From Melioribacteraceae bacterium (lineage in GTDB: Bacteria; Bacteroidota; Ignavibacteria; Ignavibacteriales; Melioribacteraceae): a stretch of DNA of 64,000 nt. Location of the stretch: NCBI GenBank assembly GCA_016927595.1, contig JAFGMI010000005.1, forward strand, positions 1 to 64,000. The letters are read 5' to 3'. How positions within the stretch are numbered: position 1 is the stretch's first letter; every line of letters begins with the position of its first letter. A model generated the notes under the pieces. That model was given only the letters and a program-made list of their open reading frames with translations. It was not told the DNA's origin and did no database searches. The position numbers were made by a program, and so were the translations under genes. Shown piece by piece: positions 44,852-56,858 of this stretch.

Positions 44852-46105
44852 ATGTCGATAGTAACTATAACATGTTTCATCATTTTCACGTTTCTACTTT
44901 TAACGTTTCTGAGAAGAAATGCAGATCTGCTTTCACCCGGAAGGCTATTTCTTCTGGTCTGGATGCTCGTGATTGGATTGGCTGATTTGAAGTTCAGCAG
45001 ACTGCAGGTCGACTGGTCAATTTACAGCTGGGCAGTTTTGTTCATCTGCGTTATCTCAGTTTCGGTTGGTTTGTACGGCGGATATGTCCTTAATTTTAAC
45101 AGAAGAATATTCAATATTCGTGAAATAAGAAAAGCAGCGATGACTGCAGAAATTGACACGCCTTTTCTTTTTAAGGCTATTATTGTGCTTTTTATTGCCT
45201 ATTCAGTCTCCTATTTCGTTTCCTATCTGGTAATCGGATATATCCCGGCATTTACGGCTATTCCTGATCTTTATAGAATTAACTGGGGAATTTTTGGTTT
45301 TGGTCTGTTCATTCAATCCTTTCCGGTGCTGATTTATTTAATTGTGATCTATTTGCTTCTGGCTGAAAGAAACAAACTGAAAAAATACACTTTATCAATC
45401 ATACTTCTATTTAGTTTTGCATCGTATTTTTTTCTGCTTCAGAGATACTACATAGTGTTCGCTCTTATTCTGCTTTTAAGTTTTCTTTATTACGCAAGCG
45501 ATAAGCTTAATATGAGAAATGTGTTGATTCTGCTGGGTTTGATCGGATTATCCGTGTACGGTATTTCGTTAATCCGGCTCAGTAAAGTTGCTGTGAATTT
45601 TCTTTATTATGTAAGTCAGATGAAATTTGATATTGCTTATGCTGTCTTCACGGAACCGTATATGTACCTTACGATGAATCTTGAAAACTTTGCCAACGCC
45701 GTTGAAAGGCTGGATATTTTTACATATGGTTACTTCACTTTTGATTTCATATTCGCACTATCAGGATTAAAGCACTGGCTCAGCGAATATGCATCCATTG
45801 AATCTTTTCCGCATATCGTAAGCGTTAACTACAATACTTATACGATGTTTTTTATTTACTACAGGGATTTTGGAGTTCTCGGTTTAAGTGTGATTAGCTT
45901 GTTTATGGGACTGATCATGTCAATTGTCTATTACAGAATGAAAAGATCTCCAGATCTAAACACTATTTCAACCTATGCGATTGTGGTTTTCGTTATTCTG
46001 TTTTCATTTTTTGTCCCGATTGTTTCATGGCTGCATTTCGTCTTCAATACAATACTCATATACCTTATTACAAGGAGAATTGTACTAAAGAAAGCAGTCG
46101 CCTAG
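44852..46105 (+). CDS. O-antigen/oligosaccharide polymerase-like protein (Wzy)
   Basis: The 417-residue product has about twelve hydrophobic helices and no soluble domain beyond loops. There is one large loop in the second half (around YMYLTMNLENFANAVERLDIF), a pattern seen in oligosaccharide repeat-unit polymerases. Its place between flippase and glycosyltransferases supports that. Wzy proteins share little sequence, so the call leans on topology and context. Its end overlaps the convergent GT4 gene by four bases. Confidence 0.75.
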   Translation: MSIVTITCFIIFTFLLLTFLRRNADLLSPGRLFLLVWMLVIGLADLKFSRLQVDWSIYSWAVLFICVISVSVGLYGGYVLNFNRRIFNIREIRKAAMTAEIDTPFLFKAIIVLFIAYSVSYFVSYLVIGYIPAFTAIPDLYRINWGIFGFGLFIQSFPVLIYLIVIYLLLAERNKLKKYTLSIILLFSFASYFFLLQRYYIVFALILLLSFLYYASDKLNMRNVLILLGLIGLSVYGISLIRLSKVAVNFLYYVSQMKFDIAYAVFTEPYMYLTMNLENFANAVERLDIFTYGYFTFDFIFALSGLKHWLSEYASIESFPHIVSVNYNTYTMFFIYYRDFGVLGLSVISLFMGLIMSIVYYRMKRSPDLNTISTYAIVVFVILFSFFVPIVSWLHFVFNTILIYLITRRIVLKKAVA

Positions 46106-47319
46106 CGAATTCCTTTGTATAGACTGTGGAGATCAATTCTGTATTTATTATCGTTCAGCAATTTGTCTATGTCCTGCATCGAATTCTTAAGGATACTAAG
46201 TTCCGATTCGTAGTTATTCAATATGTCCTGAAGGGACTCGCTCCAAGAAACCGCATTATTTCTCTCATAAGTCTTTCCGCATTTAATCACCTGCTCAATA
46301 ATTTCCTTCATTCCTCCAAGATCCGGTACGAGAGGAATAACACCAAGTGAGGCAGCCTCAAGTATCGTCATGGGTGCATTTTCATAGCAGCTTGAACTGA
46401 GGCAGAAAATCCTGGCTTTCGATACTTCCTCAAACAAAAGATCTTGCGGCATGAAAGGTTTAAAAATAATATCCTCATTTTTTCCGGTCATCTGCCTCAG
46501 GCGTACTTCCTCTTCGCCCTCGCCTATTAATAAAAGCCTGAAACCTTTTTCGTCTGATCTCTTCCACTTAAGAAACGCTTCAATCAGAAATCCGAGATTC
46601 TTTTCTCTGGAAAACCTGCCGAAATAACAAATGAGGTTCCCCTTCTTCTGAAAATTCTCAGGCAGCTCAAGTGTAACGGGATTTCGCAGAAGCTCAATTC
46701 TGGTAACCGGAATATTATCTTCTGCAAGTTTTCGTGCCAGAAATTCACTCGGACAGATGAATTTATCGACAATATCTCTGTGCCGGAGAAGGCTGTTGGA
46801 TACCAGGCTTCGGACTCCTTTTATGATAGAAAAAAGAATTCCCCGCCGATCGCATTTATCCGTAAAGATGCTCAGTTTCAATTTCTTACCGATGCATTTT
46901 TCACAGATCTCATTTCTGCTATTGTTGTATAAACTGGAATTTGGGCAAATAAGATGATAATCATGAATGGTTTGAACAACAGTCAGTTTTCTCTTTCTCC
47001 GCTGCATCTTTATTGCCAGAAGTATCGAAGGTGAGATTGCCGAAAAAAAACCGTGAAGGTGAATGATGTCCACGTGATTATTGTTCAGATAATTTCTAAG
47101 CAGCAAGAAGTTGTGTAGTGAAAATATATAATTAATTGCTCCTGCAAATTGGGAGTTAATTTCCCAAGACCGGAACGGAATATCGGGTATACTATTACCG
47201 CCGTCTGATTGCACAAAGCCGCTGACTATTTTAACATTATCATACGGTCTTCTCGAAATGTTAAAGACGGTTTCCGCTCCGCCTTTCTTTTCATAGTTGT
47301 TGATATGAAGAATGTTCAT
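46102..47319 (-). CDS. GT4-family glycosyltransferase, reversed in the locus
   Basis: The 405-residue GT-B enzyme begins MNILHINNYEKKGGAETVF, alike to the GT4 at 42160. The donor domain shows ICYFGRFSREKNLGFLI and the E-x7-E motif in CYENAPMTILEAASLG. It is the only minus-strand gene of the polysaccharide locus, converging on the polymerase gene with a four-base overlap. It must have its own promoter in the 137-base gap at 47320-47456. Confidence 0.9.
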   Translation of the reverse strand: MNILHINNYEKKGGAETVFNISRRPYDNVKIVSGFVQSDGGNSIPDIPFRSWEINSQFAGAINYIFSLHNFLLLRNYLNNNHVDIIHLHGFFSAISPSILLAIKMQRRKRKLTVVQTIHDYHLICPNSSLYNNSRNEICEKCIGKKLKLSIFTDKCDRRGILFSIIKGVRSLVSNSLLRHRDIVDKFICPSEFLARKLAEDNIPVTRIELLRNPVTLELPENFQKKGNLICYFGRFSREKNLGFLIEAFLKWKRSDEKGFRLLLIGEGEEEVRLRQMTGKNEDIIFKPFMPQDLLFEEVSKARIFCLSSSCYENAPMTILEAASLGVIPLVPDLGGMKEIIEQVIKCGKTYERNNAVSWSESLQDILNNYESELSILKNSMQDIDKLLNDNKYRIDLHSLYKGIR

Positions 47320-47456: not shown

Positions 47457-48647
47457 ATGAAGATACTCTATCTGCTGTCTCGTGTTCCGTACCCCATCGA
47501 TAAGGGTGATAAATTACGAGCGTACCATCAGCTTCGAATTCTGAAGAAATCGAACGAGATCAGTTTGTTCTGTCTTAACGACAGTAAAGGAATGAATATC
47601 GAGCCGGATGAACTTCTTAAAATCGCAGACAGGTATGAAATCTTTTCATTATCAAAATTAAAAATTGTTATTAATTTGCTCGAAGCGGTATTTTCCAACC
47701 TTCCTTTTCAGACATATTATTTCTATTCGAAAAGAATACAGAATGAACTCATTCGAACAATAAGTGAATTTAAACCTGATATTATCGTATGTCAGTTGAT
47801 CAGAATGGCCAAATATCTTGATGAGGGTGTTAATGTACCTGTAGTAATTGACTATGTTGACGTTTTGTCGAAAGGTCTCGAACGCAGGGAACAAAGTTCA
47901 ATGGGAATAATAAGACAAATTTTTAAAGCAGAGCATAAACGTGTTCTGGATTATGAAAAGTATGTGTTCGAAAAGTACAGGAATGCCGTAATTATAACCG
48001 AAAACGACCGGGATGAACTGCCTTTAATTGACAGGAATTTGATCAAAATAGTCCCCAACGGGATTGACACCCAGAACTTTAAGAGAACGCCTTCTGAAAA
48101 GGATATTGATCTTATTTTTGCAGGCAATATGTCGTATCCGCCCAATATAGATGCGGTTGAATTCATTGTAAAAAAAGTTCTGCCTATCATTAGAACCACA
48201 CATCCGGGAATAAATTTTTATATTGTCGGATCCTCTCCGTCCGCAAGAATACGAAAACTTCAGAGCAGGAATGTTATAGTAACCGGCTGGGTGAAAGACA
48301 TAAAGCATTTTTACAACAGAGCTAAAATTTTTTTGGCTCCCATGCAGATCGGAACAGGTCTCCAAAACAAAATTCTCGAAGCAATGTCGATGTCAATTCC
48401 ATGCATTATTTCATCTCTGGCACAAAGGGGAATTCAGGCAGAGAACAATGAAAACCTGTTCGTAGCGGATGATCCGGTAAAAATTTCCGAATTGATTGTA
48501 AAACTCCTCGGAGATACAGAATTGAGAGAAATAATCGGTGAGAAGGGGCGGCGTTTCGTTAGTGAAAGATACGACTGGAACGTCATTGTAAAAGAATTTG
48601 AGAATTATTTGTCAAACATAGTTAATAATACAGATCATGAAGTTTAA
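47457..48647 (+). CDS. Glycosyltransferase of the PEP-CTERM/exosortase-associated sugar transferase type
   Basis: The 396-residue GT4-like protein starts MKILYLLSRVPYPIDKGDKLR, a hallmark of the family often named TIGR03087/stp1 sugar transferases. The donor-site segment IFAGNMSYPPNIDAVEFIV and late MQIGTGLQNKILEAMS follow that family well. No exosortase or PEP-CTERM gene appears in the window, so here it is best seen as a general surface-glycan transferase. The end overlaps the next gene by 11 bases. Confidence 0.85.
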   Translation: MKILYLLSRVPYPIDKGDKLRAYHQLRILKKSNEISLFCLNDSKGMNIEPDELLKIADRYEIFSLSKLKIVINLLEAVFSNLPFQTYYFYSKRIQNELIRTISEFKPDIIVCQLIRMAKYLDEGVNVPVVIDYVDVLSKGLERREQSSMGIIRQIFKAEHKRVLDYEKYVFEKYRNAVIITENDRDELPLIDRNLIKIVPNGIDTQNFKRTPSEKDIDLIFAGNMSYPPNIDAVEFIVKKVLPIIRTTHPGINFYIVGSSPSARIRKLQSRNVIVTGWVKDIKHFYNRAKIFLAPMQIGTGLQNKILEAMSMSIPCIISSLAQRGIQAENNENLFVADDPVKISELIVKLLGDTELREIIGEKGRRFVSERYDWNVIVKEFENYLSNIVNNTDHEV

Positions 48648-49827
48648 CTACATCGTTATCGGAGCGGGCATTGTAGGGCTCGCTGCGGCCTACAAGATAT
48701 TACTGAGATCGCCGGGCGCATCCGTGCTCGTTATTGAAAAGGAAGAGGATGTTGCACAGCATCAGACAGGTAACAACAGCGGTGTGATTCACTCTGGCAT
48801 TTATTATAAACCGGGTAGTTTAAAGGCATTGAACTGTCGCAAAGGATACCGGCAGCTTCTTGAATTCTGTGATGAGCACGATGTAAAATATGATATCTGC
48901 GGTAAAATAATTGTTGCCGCAAATGATGCCGAAATTCCTCTCCTTGAAAACATTTATCTGAGAGGTATCGAAAACGGTCTTGAAAACTTAAAAAGACTCG
49001 AAGCAAAAGAACTTAAAGAATATGAACCGAATGTGAAAGGCGTATCGGGAGTCTTTGTACCGCAGACGGGTATAATTGATTTTAAAGAAGTCTGCATCAG
49101 GCTAAAAGATTTTTTGTGTTCACACGGAGTTGAATTTAAATTTAATGAAATGGTTGAGGATATCAGAAATAGTAATCCTGTGTTTGTAAGAACACAACGG
49201 AATGAGTACTTCACCGAATTCCTTGTTACTTGTGCCGGTCTTCACTCGGATAAATTGGCAGCATTGACTGAAGAAAATATAGACTTCAGGATAATACCAT
49301 TTCGCGGGGAATATTATAAGTTGAAGGATGAGAGAAAAGATTTTGTAAAAAATCTTATTTATCCGGTTCCTAATCCCGATTTCCCTTTCCTTGGTGTTCA
49401 TTTTACGAGAATGATTAATGGTGGGGTTGAATGCGGACCGAATGCAGTGTTTTCGTTTAAGCGCGAAGGGTACAGTAAAACCGATTTCAGTATCACTGAT
49501 ACATTTAATTCACTTACCTGGCCGGGTCTTCATAAAGTTGCAACAAAATACTGGAAAATCGGTCTGGGTGAATTTTACCGTTCATTCAGTAAACGTGCAT
49601 TTGTTAAAGCGCTGCGAATACTTCTTCCGTCTATTTCCGAAAATGATTTAACAGCCGGAGGCTCAGGTGTACGTGCGCAAGCCTGCGACAGAAGAGGCGG
49701 TTTGATGGATGATTTTTATATATTAGAAAACAAAAATATTTTTCATGTTTGCAATGCACCTTCACCCGCGGCAACTGCTGCATTAGCCATCGGTGAATAT
49801 ATTGCTGATAAAGTAATTAAACACTAG
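48637..49827 (+). CDS. lhgO: L-2-hydroxyglutarate oxidase-like FAD enzyme
   Basis: The 396-residue FAD oxidoreductase has the dinucleotide motif GAGIVGLAAAYKI. QTGNNSGVIHSGIYYKPGSLKA and the late GGSGVRAQACDRRG are typical of LhgO. Known members oxidise L-2-hydroxyglutarate to 2-oxoglutarate at the membrane, with electrons to quinone. It overlaps the preceding glycosyltransferase gene by 11 bases and precedes the sugar-phosphate transferase by 13, so it is part of the same transcript. Why it is there is unclear. Confidence 0.88.
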   Translation: MKFNYIVIGAGIVGLAAAYKILLRSPGASVLVIEKEEDVAQHQTGNNSGVIHSGIYYKPGSLKALNCRKGYRQLLEFCDEHDVKYDICGKIIVAANDAEIPLLENIYLRGIENGLENLKRLEAKELKEYEPNVKGVSGVFVPQTGIIDFKEVCIRLKDFLCSHGVEFKFNEMVEDIRNSNPVFVRTQRNEYFTEFLVTCAGLHSDKLAALTEENIDFRIIPFRGEYYKLKDERKDFVKNLIYPVPNPDFPFLGVHFTRMINGGVECGPNAVFSFKREGYSKTDFSITDTFNSLTWPGLHKVATKYWKIGLGEFYRSFSKRAFVKALRILLPSISENDLTAGGSGVRAQACDRRGGLMDDFYILENKNIFHVCNAPSPAATAALAIGEYIADKVIKH

Positions 49828-49840
49828 CTCTTGATGCATC

Positions 49841-51244
49841 TTGAACAAAAAGATTGAGAAAATATTTGTACTCTCCGTTGACTTCTTTACTATTAATCTG
49901 GCAGGTATATTATATTTCTATTTCAGAGTGGAAAGCGGTCTGTTCGATCTTATAACAGAACCGGTATTTGTACTTTCGGTTGTGGCTATTTACACATACT
50001 GGCTTCTTATTTTTATCTTCGTAGGAATGTACAGAACCTGGTTTGCTGCTTCACGCTTCGATGAATTGTCTACTTTGTTCAAAGCAAGCTTTGTAGGAAT
50101 TTTCCTGCTGTTTTTCCTAATTCTCTATGATGATTATTCAAAAGGTGTCAGTTCTGAAAATCGATTCCTGATTTTTATCTACTGGGGAATATTCCTCGTT
50201 GCCGTTAGTGCCGGCAGAATATTGGTGAGAAGCATTCAGCGTAATCTTTTAATAAAAGGGGTCGGAAGAAGGAATGCTGTAATTGTCGGTTTCAACAGCA
50301 AGGCAAACAACATGCACAAAACAATTAATGCATCAAGAGGGCTGGGGATTGATGTTGCCGCTTATCTGGCTGTTGACGAAAATAATATTGGCAAGGAATT
50401 CTCCGGAGCTAAGGTAGTAGACACATATAAAAAGATAAAAGAGACTATACATAAATATAACATCAAAGAAATTATACTTGCTCTGGAAAAAAATGAAGAG
50501 GATATTCTGCTTACCGTCGTGGGTGAAGTCGATACGGAAAACGTATCAATTAAAATAATTCCTGATTTATACGAGATCATAAGCGGTCAAGCACGTACTT
50601 CACAGTTGTACGGATTTCCTCTCATCGATATAATGCCTCAGCTGATGCTGGAGTGGGAGAAAAAGATTAAGAGATTAATGGATATATCCATCTCTCTGCT
50701 TATATTGTTTATATCATCACCAGTCATTCTTTTCACTTCAATAGCCATAAAAATTGACAGCAGAGGACCTGTCTTTTATAAGCAGGAAAGATCAGGGCTT
50801 AACGGCAGAATCTTTAAGATGATTAAATTCAGATCAATGGTTGTTGATGCGGAAAAACTGAGCGGACCGGTCTGGTCGTCTAAAAACGATCCTCGTGTTA
50901 CAAAAGTTGGGAAGTTTATCCGTAAGGTGAGAATAGACGAACTGCCGCAGCTGATTAATGTGCTCAAAGGCGATATGAGTCTGGTGGGACCCCGACCCGA
51001 AAGACCTTTCTTTGTTGAACAGTTATCCAGAGAAATTCCTCTTTATAAAAGGCGGTTAAAAGTAAGACCGGGGTTAACGGGCTGGGCACAGGTTAAACAT
51101 AAATATGATGAAAGTGTAGAAGATGTTAAAACAAAATTGAGATACGATTTATTTTATATAGAAAACATGTCGCTTCGAAACGATCTGAAGATTTTGTTCA
51201 GAACTATTTTTGTAGTATTATTTGGCAAAGGACATTACCAATAG
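49841..51244 (+). CDS. Polyprenyl-phosphate sugar-1-phosphate transferase (WcaJ/WbaP type)
   Basis: The 467-residue product starts with TTG at 49841. Four N-terminal helices and a Rossmann-like domain (about 145-240) precede a bacterial sugar transferase domain with all key segments: [19 protein letters not shown] at about 329-333, [23 protein letters not shown] and [10 protein letters not shown]. It starts the repeat unit by moving a sugar-1-phosphate onto undecaprenyl phosphate. This is the intact copy; the fusion protein at 51987 carries a degenerate one. Confidence 0.93.
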
Positions 51245-51256
51245 AGAGTGTTAAAT

Positions 51257-51976
51257 ATGGCAAAAACAATTGTAATTATTCCTACTTATAATGAGATCGA
51301 TAATATTAAAAAAATTATTCCGAAGGTATTTGAGTTTCTGCCAGAAACGGATATTCTTGTGGTAGATGATAACTCACCCGACGGAACAGGCAGTTATGTT
51401 GAAGATCTCACCGGATCGGATGGCAGAATCAAATTGATAAGACGCTCAGGTAAACTCGGTCTCGGAACAGCTTATGTTGAAGGATTTAAATATATGCTGG
51501 CGAACGGATACGATCTTGCTTTTCAAATGGATGCGGATTTTTCACACGATCCGAAAGAACTTGTTAATATGACAAAAGAGATAGAGAACGCTGACCTGGT
51601 AATCGGAAGCAGATATATCACTGGTGTTAATGTAATCAATTGGCCTATGCGCAGACTGCTTTTGAGTTACTTCGCAAATAAGTACACCAAGATTGTAACA
51701 GGTATACCGGTATGCGACGCAACGGGCGGATTCAAATGCTTCAGGAAAAAAGTTCTGGAGTCTATAAATCTGGATGCGATAAAATCAAACGGATACTCCT
51801 TCCAGATTGAGATGAACTTTAAAGCCTGGAAGAAAGGGTTTAAGATAGTTGAAATACCAATAATTTTTTATGACAGAATGGAAGGTAAGTCCAAAATGTC
51901 TAAGAAAATTGTAAGAGAAGCAGTGTTGATGGTTTGGAAGTTGAGGTTTAAGAGTATTTTCGGATTAATAAAATAA
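51257..51976 (+). CDS. Polyprenol-phosphate mannose synthase-like GT2 enzyme
   Basis: The start is set at the ATG at 51257 rather than an in-frame GTG nine bases upstream, since MAKTIVIIPTYNE fits the family. The 239-residue product has GT2 motifs VDDNSPDGTG and MDADFSHDP, CDATGGFKCF, and the YSFQIEMNFKAW segment of DPM1-type enzymes. It likely charges polyprenyl phosphate with mannose or a related sugar for extracytoplasmic glycosylation. No C-terminal membrane helices are present. Confidence 0.9.
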   Translation: MAKTIVIIPTYNEIDNIKKIIPKVFEFLPETDILVVDDNSPDGTGSYVEDLTGSDGRIKLIRRSGKLGLGTAYVEGFKYMLANGYDLAFQMDADFSHDPKELVNMTKEIENADLVIGSRYITGVNVINWPMRRLLLSYFANKYTKIVTGIPVCDATGGFKCFRKKVLESINLDAIKSNGYSFQIEMNFKAWKKGFKIVEIPIIFYDRMEGKSKMSKKIVREAVLMVWKLRFKSIFGLIK

Positions 51977-51986
51977 CTTTAATGAA

Positions 51987-53975
51987 ATGACCGACATCTC
52001 CATAATTATAGTTAATTATAATGTAAAGGAGTATCTTAATAATCTTCTGAATTCGCTGGAAAAAGCATCCGGTAATTTGCGAACTGAAATTATAGTTGTT
52101 GACAATGCTTCTTCGGACGGCAGTGCCGAAGAAATTCCTTCAAAGTTTCCTGCGATTAAATTCCTGAGGAATGAAAAGAATCTGGGATTCGGGAAAGCCA
52201 ACAATCAGGGATTGGAATTAGCAAATGGGGAATACATTCTTTTAATAAATCCTGACACAATCGTTAAGGAAGATACGATTGAAAGATTAATTCAATTTCT
52301 TGAGGCAAATCCTGATGCTGGGATGGTAAGCTGTAAAGTTCTTAATCCTGACGGTACACTTCAGCTAGCTTGCCGAAGAAGTTATCCTACTCCCTGGGTA
52401 TCGTTTTCTAAAATAACGGGTTTAAGCCACCTTTTTCCGAAAAGCAAGTTATTTGCAAAGTATAATCTTACCTATCTAGATGAAAACGAGATCAACGAGG
52501 TTGATGCTATCTCCGGAGCGTTTATGCTTTTCAGAAGAAATATTTATAATGAAATCGGCGGCTTCGACCCTAAGTTTTTTATGTACGGCGAAGACCTGGA
52601 TTTCTGCTACCGCATACAGCAGGCAGGTTATAAAATTTATTATGTCCCTTCAACAGAAATTATTCATTATAAAGGTGAAAGCACTAAGCGCAGCAATCTT
52701 GATGAAACCAAAGTATTCTACGACGCGATGCATCTTTTCGTTCAGAAGCATTTCTCGTCATCATTCCTTGTAAAGTGGATATTGAAATTCGCCATCGGTT
52801 TAAGAAAATCTGCAGCATTTGCCAACAGATATAAACTTCCGGCAGTTTCTTTTTTTATAGATTTACTAATCTTCATCGCTGCCTTTATTCTTGCGGAAAA
52901 TATCTACTCGAATGAATCATGGAGAGGTATACCCTATGATGTTAAACCATGGGTATATATCGTCCCTGCAATAATTCAAGGTGTAATCAGTCTCGTAGCG
53001 GGAGCTTATAAGAGAACCGCAATTTCCGTACTCAGAACATTCATTGCTCTTTTTTTCGGTATTATAGTTCTATCTGCGCTCACTTTCTTCTTTAAGCAGT
53101 ATGGCTATAGCCGGGCTGTTCTGCTTATCTGTTACGCCTTTTTGGGTGTGGGTCTTGTATTATGGCGAATATTCGCTAAGTTGTATTTTAAAGTCGGTCT
53201 TGTAGAATATAAAAACAGAAACAATACACTGATTGTCGGCACTAAATCGGGTGTCGGTGAACTTATTAACAGAATGAACAGAACAGTATCCGGAATGTAT
53301 AAAATAAAAGGTTTGATAGGAAATGATCAGAAAATGATGGGTGAAAAAATTGGTAATTTTAGCTTCATCGGATCGACTGAAAACCTGAGAAAAATTATTG
53401 AAAAAGAAAAAATTCAGAACATTGTTTTCAGTACTGCAGATATAAGCTACGAAAAAATATTTTCTCTTGTTACCGAATGTCAGGGATTAAATGTTCAATT
53501 CCTTGTTGCCGGATCAGGTCAGGATTACCTCGTTGGAAAATCCGAAATCACAAGTCTGGAAGAAATACCTTTTACACGGCTTTTCTACAATATTTCAGAT
53601 CCGGGGCATAAACTGCTTAAAGGAATTCTTGATTTGAGCGTTTCGGTACCGGTTCTGCTTTTTGTTTATCCTTTCATATATTTTTCTACGAAAGTCTCAG
53701 GTAAAAAAAGTAAATTTGCTGAGTTTGTTTTACAGATTCCCAAGGTTCTTGTATTCAAAAAAAGCCTGGTAGGTCCTGAAAAGACTTCATTTTACGATGG
53801 TCTTTATATTGGGCGGACTGGACTTACCGGATTCTGGAATCTTGAATCTGCATCAGATGGTAGCGATGAAGAAACAAACAAGCTTAATTTATATTACGCA
53901 AAGAATCAGAACATCTGGCTAGATATCGATATATTAGGTAAAACACTATCAAAGTATTTATTGAGAGGAGATTAA
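51987..53975 (+). CDS. GT2 glycosyltransferase fused to a degenerate phosphoglycosyltransferase
   Basis: The 662-residue product starts with a GT2 domain (about 1-270, ISIIIVNYNVKEYL, DNASSDGS, rhamnosyltransferase-like). Four helices follow (about 285-400), then a Rossmann-like domain (about 410-525), the same plan as the N-terminal part of WcaJ/WbaP proteins. The last 120 residues keep the start helix (KGILDLSVSVPVLLF), SLVGPE (about 593) and GLTGFW (about 611) through LDIDILGKT of a sugar transferase. The stretch with KFRSM and DELPQ is missing. The C-terminal part is thus probably inactive. No frameshift is visible. Confidence 0.85.
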   Translation: MTDISIIIVNYNVKEYLNNLLNSLEKASGNLRTEIIVVDNASSDGSAEEIPSKFPAIKFLRNEKNLGFGKANNQGLELANGEYILLINPDTIVKEDTIERLIQFLEANPDAGMVSCKVLNPDGTLQLACRRSYPTPWVSFSKITGLSHLFPKSKLFAKYNLTYLDENEINEVDAISGAFMLFRRNIYNEIGGFDPKFFMYGEDLDFCYRIQQAGYKIYYVPSTEIIHYKGESTKRSNLDETKVFYDAMHLFVQKHFSSSFLVKWILKFAIGLRKSAAFANRYKLPAVSFFIDLLIFIAAFILAENIYSNESWRGIPYDVKPWVYIVPAIIQGVISLVAGAYKRTAISVLRTFIALFFGIIVLSALTFFFKQYGYSRAVLLICYAFLGVGLVLWRIFAKLYFKVGLVEYKNRNNTLIVGTKSGVGELINRMNRTVSGMYKIKGLIGNDQKMMGEKIGNFSFIGSTENLRKIIEKEKIQNIVFSTADISYEKIFSLVTECQGLNVQFLVAGSGQDYLVGKSEITSLEEIPFTRLFYNISDPGHKLLKGILDLSVSVPVLLFVYPFIYFSTKVSGKKSKFAEFVLQIPKVLVFKKSLVGPEKTSFYDGLYIGRTGLTGFWNLESASDGSDEETNKLNLYYAKNQNIWLDIDILGKTLSKYLLRGD

Positions 53976-54926
53976 ATGGCGGGGAATGTATTGGATTTTG
54001 AGAAGCCGATTGCCGATCTTGAAAGCAAGATCAGCGAAATGAAAAAGTACGAAGATAATCTTGATATAAAGGAAGAAATTTCGCGTCTCGAAGAAAAGGT
54101 ATTTAAACTAAAACAGAATATTTACAACGATCTCACAAGATGGCAGAGAGTTCAGTTAGCCAGACATCCGGAACGCCCTTACACGCTGGATTATATATTC
54201 ATGATGACAAAGGATTTTGTAGAGCTTCACGGCGACAGACTCTACCGTGATGACAAAGCGATAGTGGGTGGATTTGCAACCCTCGATGAATACAAGGTGA
54301 TGATTATAGGACAACAGAAAGGCAGGGATACAAAATCAAACCTCTACAGAAATTTTGGCATGGCAAATCCTGAAGGCTACCGTAAAGCGCTTCGCCTGAT
54401 GAAACTGGCTGAAAAATTTAATAAACCAATAATCACCTTAATCGATACACCAGGAGCATATCCGGGCTTGGAAGCCGAGCAGAACGGACAGGCTGAGGCA
54501 ATTGCAAGAAATTTATTTGAGATGAGTCTGCTTAAAGTACCTGTGATTGTTGTTATTATTGGTGAAGGTGCCAGCGGCGGCGCACTGGGAATAGGCGTGG
54601 GCGATAGAATCTTAATGCTCGAAAATACCTGGTATTCAGTTATTAGTCCGGAATCCTGTTCAAGTATTCTCTGGAGAAGCTGGGAGTATAAAGAACAGGC
54701 AGCCGAAGCGCTGAAGTTAACGGCAAAGGATCTTTTGGAATTCAGGCTTATTGACCGGATTGTTCCTGAACCTTTGGGCGGTGCGCACAAAGATCATAAA
54801 ACAACAGCCGAAACACTTAAACAAGTTTTGAAAGAAGAACTGGCAGGACTGGTAAAATTAAAATCCGATAAGCTGGTGCAGAGCAGATTGGAAAAATTCT
54901 CCAGGATGGGAGTTTACGAAGAATAA
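53976..54926 (+). CDS. accA: Acetyl-CoA carboxylase carboxyltransferase subunit alpha
   Basis: The 316-residue product has normal length. The N-terminal helices [17 protein letters not shown] and the crotonase-like core with [23 protein letters not shown] and [16 protein letters not shown] are diagnostic. With AccD it moves the carboxyl group from biotin to acetyl-CoA, making malonyl-CoA. It starts at the base after the fusion gene ends, with GAGAGGAGA before the ATG. accB, accC and accD are not in the window. Confidence 0.97.
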
Positions 54927-55394: not shown

Positions 55395-56858
55395 ATGTTC
55401 GATAAAATCAAACAGCTTTCGAAAGAAACGCTTGTCTACGGCATCAGTAATATAGTCGGCAGATTTTTAAATTTTCTGCTGGTGCCGTTTTATTCGCACG
55501 TGTTTGCACCTTCGGAGTTCGGCGAGTTTTCGCTTGTCTACGCATATTTAACTTTTTTGAACCTCATTTATATTTACGGGATGGACGCGGCATTTCTTAA
55601 GTATCACTCTCTGGCTGAAGCGGAACAAAAGAAAGATACATTCTCAACTGGTATTTTAACGGTTATTATTACTACAGCGATATTCTCGGTAATATTTTTT
55701 CTGCTTAGGGAACCTTTCAGAAACCTCGTAGAACTGAGTATTGATTACAGTAATATTATTACTTATGTCATCCTGATTCTTTTCCTCGATACAATAGCCC
55801 TTATTCCGTTTGCAAATCTCAGGTTGCAGAACAGACCCGTTAAATTCGCATTTATTAAAACGGGAAATATAATCGTAAACATAAGTTTCAATTTTATATT
55901 AATACTGGGATTTAATTTCGGGATAGAAGCTATTTTCATCAGTAATCTGTTTGCTTCTCTGTTTTCATTAATAGCGCTTTCTTCCGACATATTTAAGAAT
56001 CTGCAGTTTAAAATTACGAAATCCACGCTGCTCAGAATGCTTAAATTCGCACTGCCTTATCTGCCCGGTAGTCTCGCGGCTATGTTTGTGCAGGTAATAG
56101 ACGTGCCGATTATTGAAATGCTGACCGACAAAGAAACTCTGGGCATTTACAGAATGAACTACAAACTTGGTCTTGTGATAATGCTCATTGTTTCGATGTT
56201 CAATTACGCCTGGCAGCCTTTTTTCTTAAACAATGCAAAAGAAGAAAATGCAAAGGAAATTTTTGCTAAAGTGTTTACGATTTTTTTAATTGCATTAAGT
56301 GGGATATGGATTATACTGACCCTTTTCATCGATGATGTGGTAACTTCAACTTTATTCGGCGCGGGTCCTATCCTCGGGCAGAAATATCACGAAGGTTTGT
56401 ATATTATTCCCGTTATTCTTCTGGCTTATATTTTTTACGGAATGTATTCCAATTTCACGGCAGGGATTTATATAAAAGAAAAGACTAAATATTTTCCGTT
56501 GGTTACAATCACCGCAGCAGCGGCTAATGTGGGAATTAATTTATTACTTGTTCCCGGAATAGGAATTATGGGAGGCGCTGTTGCTACACTGGTAAGTTAT
56601 ATAATAATGGCTGCCGGACTTTTCATTGTCTCGCAGAAGTTTTACCGGATACAATATGAATATTCAAAGGTAATTAAAATAATGCTAATGATAGCCGGGG
56701 TAGTTCTCATCTATTATTATCTGTCATATTATGAACTATTGACAATATATATTAAGATATTTATTCTTTTCGGTTTTGCCGTTTCATTTTTGTTGCTTAA
56801 AATAATTTCTCTAAAAGAATTAAAAACATTGTTTGTAAAATTAAAAATAACCGGTTAA
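55395..56858 (+). CDS. Second Wzx-like polysaccharide/lipid-linked flippase
   Basis: The 487-residue protein has about fourteen helices and an N-terminus LSKETLVYGISNIVGRFLNF with VFAPSEFGEFSLVYAY, of the MOP-type polysaccharide exporter group. It is clearly different in sequence from the flippase at 43395, so the two probably serve different glycans or steps. It lies apart from the main locus, between the thioesterase and dut, and is separated from dut by only seven bases. Confidence 0.88.
   Translation: MFDKIKQLSKETLVYGISNIVGRFLNFLLVPFYSHVFAPSEFGEFSLVYAYLTFLNLIYIYGMDAAFLKYHSLAEAEQKKDTFSTGILTVIITTAIFSVIFFLLREPFRNLVELSIDYSNIITYVILILFLDTIALIPFANLRLQNRPVKFAFIKTGNIIVNISFNFILILGFNFGIEAIFISNLFASLFSLIALSSDIFKNLQFKITKSTLLRMLKFALPYLPGSLAAMFVQVIDVPIIEMLTDKETLGIYRMNYKLGLVIMLIVSMFNYAWQPFFLNNAKEENAKEIFAKVFTIFLIALSGIWIILTLFIDDVVTSTLFGAGPILGQKYHEGLYIIPVILLAYIFYGMYSNFTAGIYIKEKTKYFPLVTITAAAANVGINLLLVPGIGIMGGAVATLVSYIIMAAGLFIVSQKFYRIQYEYSKVIKIMLMIAGVVLIYYYLSYYELLTIYIKIFILFGFAVSFLLLKIISLKELKTLFVKLKITG

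Follow-up and report, generated by a model that had tools for sequence, protein, structure and literature searches.

The open reading frame at positions 51987–53975 (forward strand) of the window, the 64,000-nucleotide stretch of Melioribacteraceae DNA that was analysed, encodes a GT2 glycosyltransferase joined to half of a large monotopic phosphoglycosyltransferase (Lg-PGT) that has no active site. The frame contains no internal stop and specifies 662 amino acids. Pfam searches, profile-profile alignment with hhalign and motif counts all bore out the preliminary description of this gene as a GT2 fused to a gutted PGT. We estimate a probability of about 60% that the GT2 is active and attaches an early sugar to the lipid-linked product of the neighbouring PGT, and that the PGT half acts without catalysis, as a scaffold for membrane attachment and dimerization.

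The GT2 domain (approximately residues 1–268; 51987–52790) carries DNAS, NPDT and GEDLD motifs, and its match to Glycos_transf_2 (PF00535) in Pfam covered residues 5–190 (2.2e-26) with a score of 93.2 bits, above the curated cut-off of 23.3. It is followed by the TM four-helix bundle of the Lg-PGT NH2-terminus (approximately residues 278–401; 52818–53190), delineated from AF2 helices and an alignment to the four TM helices of WbaP, and then by a PF13727 Rossmann domain (DUF, or CoA_binding_3; 53190–53515), identified by Pfam (residues 341–506; 5.9e-12) and by Foldseek matches to WbaP (8t53) and 3nkl. Downstream are a putative dimer-swap β-hairpin (residues 511–530; 53517–53576) and a re-entrant membrane helix with K545, D549 and P562 (53601–53690). 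The site of the missing catalytic stretch, from KFRSM to the DE of DELPQ, was placed at 53691–53760 by the hhalign gap and the motif counts. A COOH-terminal PGT remnant with SLVGP, GLTG and YAKNQNIWLDIDIL completes the protein (53761–53972); it was recognized from conserved columns and from a match to Bac_transf (PF02397) that comprises only positions 95–178 of the 179 in the profile (residues 585–658; 4.9e-7). The score of the fusion against NCBIfam TIGR03025 was 127 bits, below the curated cut-off of 295.55. All of these features lie on the forward strand.

Neither KFR[STA]M nor DE[LIVF]P[QE] was found in the COOH-terminal part of any of 196 distinct fusion-family proteins; of the 103 intact PGTs encoded at these loci, which served as controls, 101 had both motifs. 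The KFRSM motif and the Asp-Glu dyad (DELPQ) required of a catalytic large PGT are thus both absent from the fusion, as the preliminary description had claimed. Its further claim that the four helices, the Rossmann domain and the end pieces had been kept was upheld by an end-to-end hhalign alignment of the COOH-terminal half with the intact PGTs (probability 100%, E 8e-62), in which gaps corresponded to the KFRSM...DE stretch and to a second, shorter segment after SLVGP. The profile of this half matched WbaP on either side of the missing stretch and matched PglC from the start to near the PglC end. Given that GT-A folds dominated the Foldseek matches of the full-length model, the COOH-terminal half was also modelled alone; its first match was WbaP (8t53; E 1.3e-10), and PglC was also among the matches. 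An ancestral form with a GT2 fused to an active PGT was not detected in the sampled genomes of approximately 66 families of the phylum. Most likely, the catalytic loop and the Asp-Glu dyad were deleted before the phylum diversified.

Full-length copies of the fusion were present in 68 of 79 genomes of the Melioribacteraceae family and in many families across the phylum. Partial copies, mostly at contig ends, were found in 9 more of the 79, and the gene was missing from the other 2, both of which are incomplete; no stops were observed in the fusion in approximately 70 family genomes. The preliminary description had left room for a deletion introduced during sequencing or assembly and for an architecture confined to a single genome. 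Both are excluded, the former by the full-length copies found family-wide and by the absence of the core motifs from all 196 proteins. Given that the same fusion, always without the active site, recurs across the phylum, the dead half has been retained for a long time. The fusion is not strictly universal, however, because a few near-complete genomes lack it (for example G201, with a best match of 3e-26). A plasmid collection yielded GT2 matches only and no full-length match to the fusion.

Several copies deviated from the usual form. One genome of family f19 has the fusion as two open reading frames (L210, G225:C187; frames of 459 and 198 amino acids), reflecting either a frameshift or a real split. 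Copies from f26 (L217; 816 amino acids, with approximately 170 ahead of the GT2) and f25 (L220; 757 amino acids) are longer, and those from f34 and f55 (L266 and L267) have a short insert within the GT2 near residue 186. In family f50 (G517, G398, G593 and G555), the search reported a single in-frame TGA, although the reading frame recovered from the G517 copy (L232) is uninterrupted over 659 amino acids.

The GT2 has more invariant residues than any other part of the fusion, and its nucleotide/metal and base motifs were preserved in 87 (GEDLD), 80 (DNAS) and 75 (NPDT) of 87 orthologues. Residues K518, K545, D549, S593, G596, G612, G615, Y637 and D646 are invariant at class level, and S375, R376, G596, Y637 and D646 remain so at phylum level. 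The re-entrant helix, with its K/R, D and P residues, aligns to WbaP and PglC and was assigned on the basis of the WbaP alignment and of conservation in alignments A1, A2 and A3, with P562 being conserved at ≥90% in the class-level alignment A2. For close pairs, dN in the PGT remnant was approximately 0.02–0.2 compared with a dS of approximately 0.2–2, and pairwise dN/dS was approximately 0.06–0.3, clearly below 1, with constraint somewhat weaker than that on the GT2. With dN so far below dS, purifying selection is acting on the dead half in Ignavibacteria.

Large PGTs form dimers through the TM bundle and through a hairpin swapped between Rossmann domains, and the dimer-swap hairpin has low confidence in monomer models of WbaP (PMC10942596). 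Residues 511–530 of the fusion constitute the only long stretch of low pLDDT in both AF2 monomer models, and they align to the dimer-swap hairpin region of WbaP and other PGTs; sequence corresponding to the hairpin and the DUF is retained, and we assigned the putative hairpin on the basis of its low pLDDT, the PGT hairpin alignment and homology to WbaP (PMC10942596). The pTM values of the AF2 models were modest (0.48 and 0.58), and the placement of domains relative to one another is therefore unsure.

Two genes upstream of the fusion, as noted in the preliminary description, is an intact large PGT (49841–51244, forward strand) with both PF13727 and PF02397, the latter matched over positions 1–178 (1.8e-72), and a TIGR03025 score of 452 bits. 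This protein and the fusion are the only PF13727 proteins of the genome, although a small PGT is encoded on another contig. Between them is a gene (51248–51976, forward strand) that we take, from its motifs, its Glycos_transf_2 match and gene order, to be a DPM1-like polyprenyl-phosphate sugar synthase, and directly 3' of the fusion is what is presumably accA (53976–54926, forward strand). The accA gene was next to the fusion in 86 of 86 loci, and the DPM-like GT2 was directly upstream in 85, the remaining locus being at a contig end; the PGT nearly always preceded the DPM-like gene where the contig extended that far. This arrangement of PGT, DPM-like GT2, fusion and accA holds in the order and in much of the class, and adjacency of accA to the fusion recurs in several families across the phylum. 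Thioesterase, flippase and dut genes follow accA in most loci. In family f4, fusion and accA remain together and the PGT is not adjacent, with an orthologous PGT (49–51% identity) located elsewhere, and in f43, f42, f63 and f58 the order is permuted to fusion, PGT, DPM-like. An LhgO-like FAD oxidoreductase gene (48637–49827) lies directly upstream of the PGT here and in many family-level loci, and a second Wzx-like flippase gene (55395–56858) follows accA and the thioesterase gene in most of the loci that extend to this point.

Outside the full-length form, the length of the fusion decreases stepwise, from approximately 660 to 610 and 390 amino acids, and the GT2 is always left. Families f32 and f52 have forms of approximately 610 amino acids with TM and Rossmann regions, whereas f39, f41, f36, f59 and f66 have forms of approximately 384–417 amino acids consisting of the GT2 and a Rossmann remnant, as do Parabacteroides distasonis and Prevotella sp. 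oral taxon 299. A GT2 protein of P. distasonis encoded next to recR (WP_005856215.1) is 45% identical to the fusion over residues 2–277, and its COOH-terminal stretch resembles what the short forms keep of the Rossmann domain; it differs from the fusion in its length of 388 amino acids and in having neither TM bundle nor PGT remnant. In a GT2 tree, the short forms nest within the gutted ones, and the supported branches require the Rossmann-remnant label to have changed four times or more; given that the root is not fixed, some of these changes can be read as gains plus losses. This nesting and these required changes indicate that the gutted form is most likely the older and was trimmed repeatedly outside Ignavibacteria.

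In the scaffold reading that we favour, the PGT of the block would produce an undecaprenyl-diphosphate-linked sugar, which the GT2 would then extend by an early residue, probably the second. The four-helix bundle and the re-entrant helix would keep the GT2 on the cytoplasmic side of the membrane, near its lipid-linked acceptor, and the Rossmann domain and hairpin may mediate either self-association of the fusion or its pairing with the intact PGT. Preservation of the GT2 motifs, loss of the PGT core and retention of the non-catalytic PGT parts all point to such a role, as do purifying selection, gene order and the low confidence of the hairpin, as in WbaP. Several lineages, however, have lost both the TM bundle and the PGT remnant and kept the GT2 with a Rossmann remnant; the GT2 can therefore do without a membrane scaffold. 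The heteromer with the intact PGT put forward in the preliminary description is plausible given that gene order is strict at the level of the order and in much of the class and that the hairpin region has been retained, but its specific form, in which hairpins are exchanged between the pseudo-PGT and the intact PGT and the new Und-PP-sugar is delivered directly to the GT2, is rather doubtful. The two are the only PF13727 proteins of the genome, share a fold in the PGT-derived half, and belong to a class of enzymes for which hairpin-swapped dimers are known (PMC10942596). Mirror-tree distance correlations with the PGT were nevertheless 0.74–0.77 for the PGT-derived half compared with 0.79 for the GT2 half, and those with the DPM-like synthase were close to them, at 0.67–0.75; with PGT correlations no higher than that of the GT2 half and near those for the synthase, this comparison gives no signal specific to the PGT and does not discriminate between partners. 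The fusion has also survived in f4, where the PGT is not adjacent, and in the lineages without the TM bundle.

A regulatory role, which the preliminary description also raised, appears unlikely; in this reading, the Rossmann domain that the fusion retains would respond to uridine nucleotides or nucleotide sugars and thereby tune either the GT2 or the PGT. By analogy, UMP, UDP and UTP stabilize the WbaP DUF and UMP inhibits WbaP (PMC10942596), which might hint at such a function, and the Rossmann part survives longest as the rest of the PGT half erodes, but the short forms retain only a brief, incomplete piece of it. Nothing specific favours the version in which the domain senses undecaprenyl phosphate. 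Repeated independent truncation and the stepwise forms would also be expected of an evolutionary relic, a PGT half that no longer has a function and is disappearing step by step. We consider this quite improbable in view of the purifying selection on that half in Ignavibacteria, the residues invariant in the phylum-level alignment and the lack of stops in the family genomes.

Large PGTs start many bacterial surface glycans, and to our knowledge the reason for their accessory TM and Rossmann domains is not settled. That these domains have been kept under selection without a catalytic site suggests that they may have a job of their own, such as membrane placement, pairing or sensing, and the trimmed forms provide a natural deletion series for probing it. 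The fusion resembles Lg-PGTs such as WbaP and WcaJ (TIGR03025; PF13727 plus PF02397) in its four-helix bundle with the PF13727 domain after it, its hairpin region, its re-entrant helix and its SLVGP and GLTG ends, but it differs from them in the absence of KFRSM and of the Asp-Glu dyad, in the second gap after SLVGP and in the GT2 in front. Bi-PGTs, bifunctional monoPGT fusions named in PMC10942596, likewise join a functional domain to a monoPGT, but they possess a catalytic PGT core; with that core absent and its PGT dead, the protein described here has one active domain rather than two and is a one-enzyme fusion. The GT2 fold and motifs are shared with COG1216/WbbL-like rhamnosyltransferases (TIGR01556, RmlT), and RmlT was among the Foldseek matches, but the NCBIfam rhamnosyltransferase match (7e-15) is far below family cut-offs and does not imply sugar specificity, and these enzymes lack the pseudo-PGT half. 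Our search of the open-licence literature found no description of a pseudo-PGT of this type. We regard the gene as a widespread glycan gene without a name, encoding a GT-PGT fusion with a pseudo-PGT domain.

The gene belongs to a phylum, Bacteroidota, whose core O-glycan machinery has been reported as unidentified (PMC12871550). The block of PGT, DPM-like synthase, GT2/pseudo-PGT and Wzx-like flippase might conceivably be part of the machinery for the conserved O-glycan core (hexose plus deoxyhexose), in which case the pseudo-PGT would pass the PGT's lipid-linked sugar on to the GT2, but this is very improbable and is offered only as a lead. As a check, Bacteroides ihuae was searched and gave no PF13727 match, and PMT-family matches in the source genome were weak. 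The glycan cluster of the window also contains a GT4-like gene on the opposite strand, at 46102–47319.
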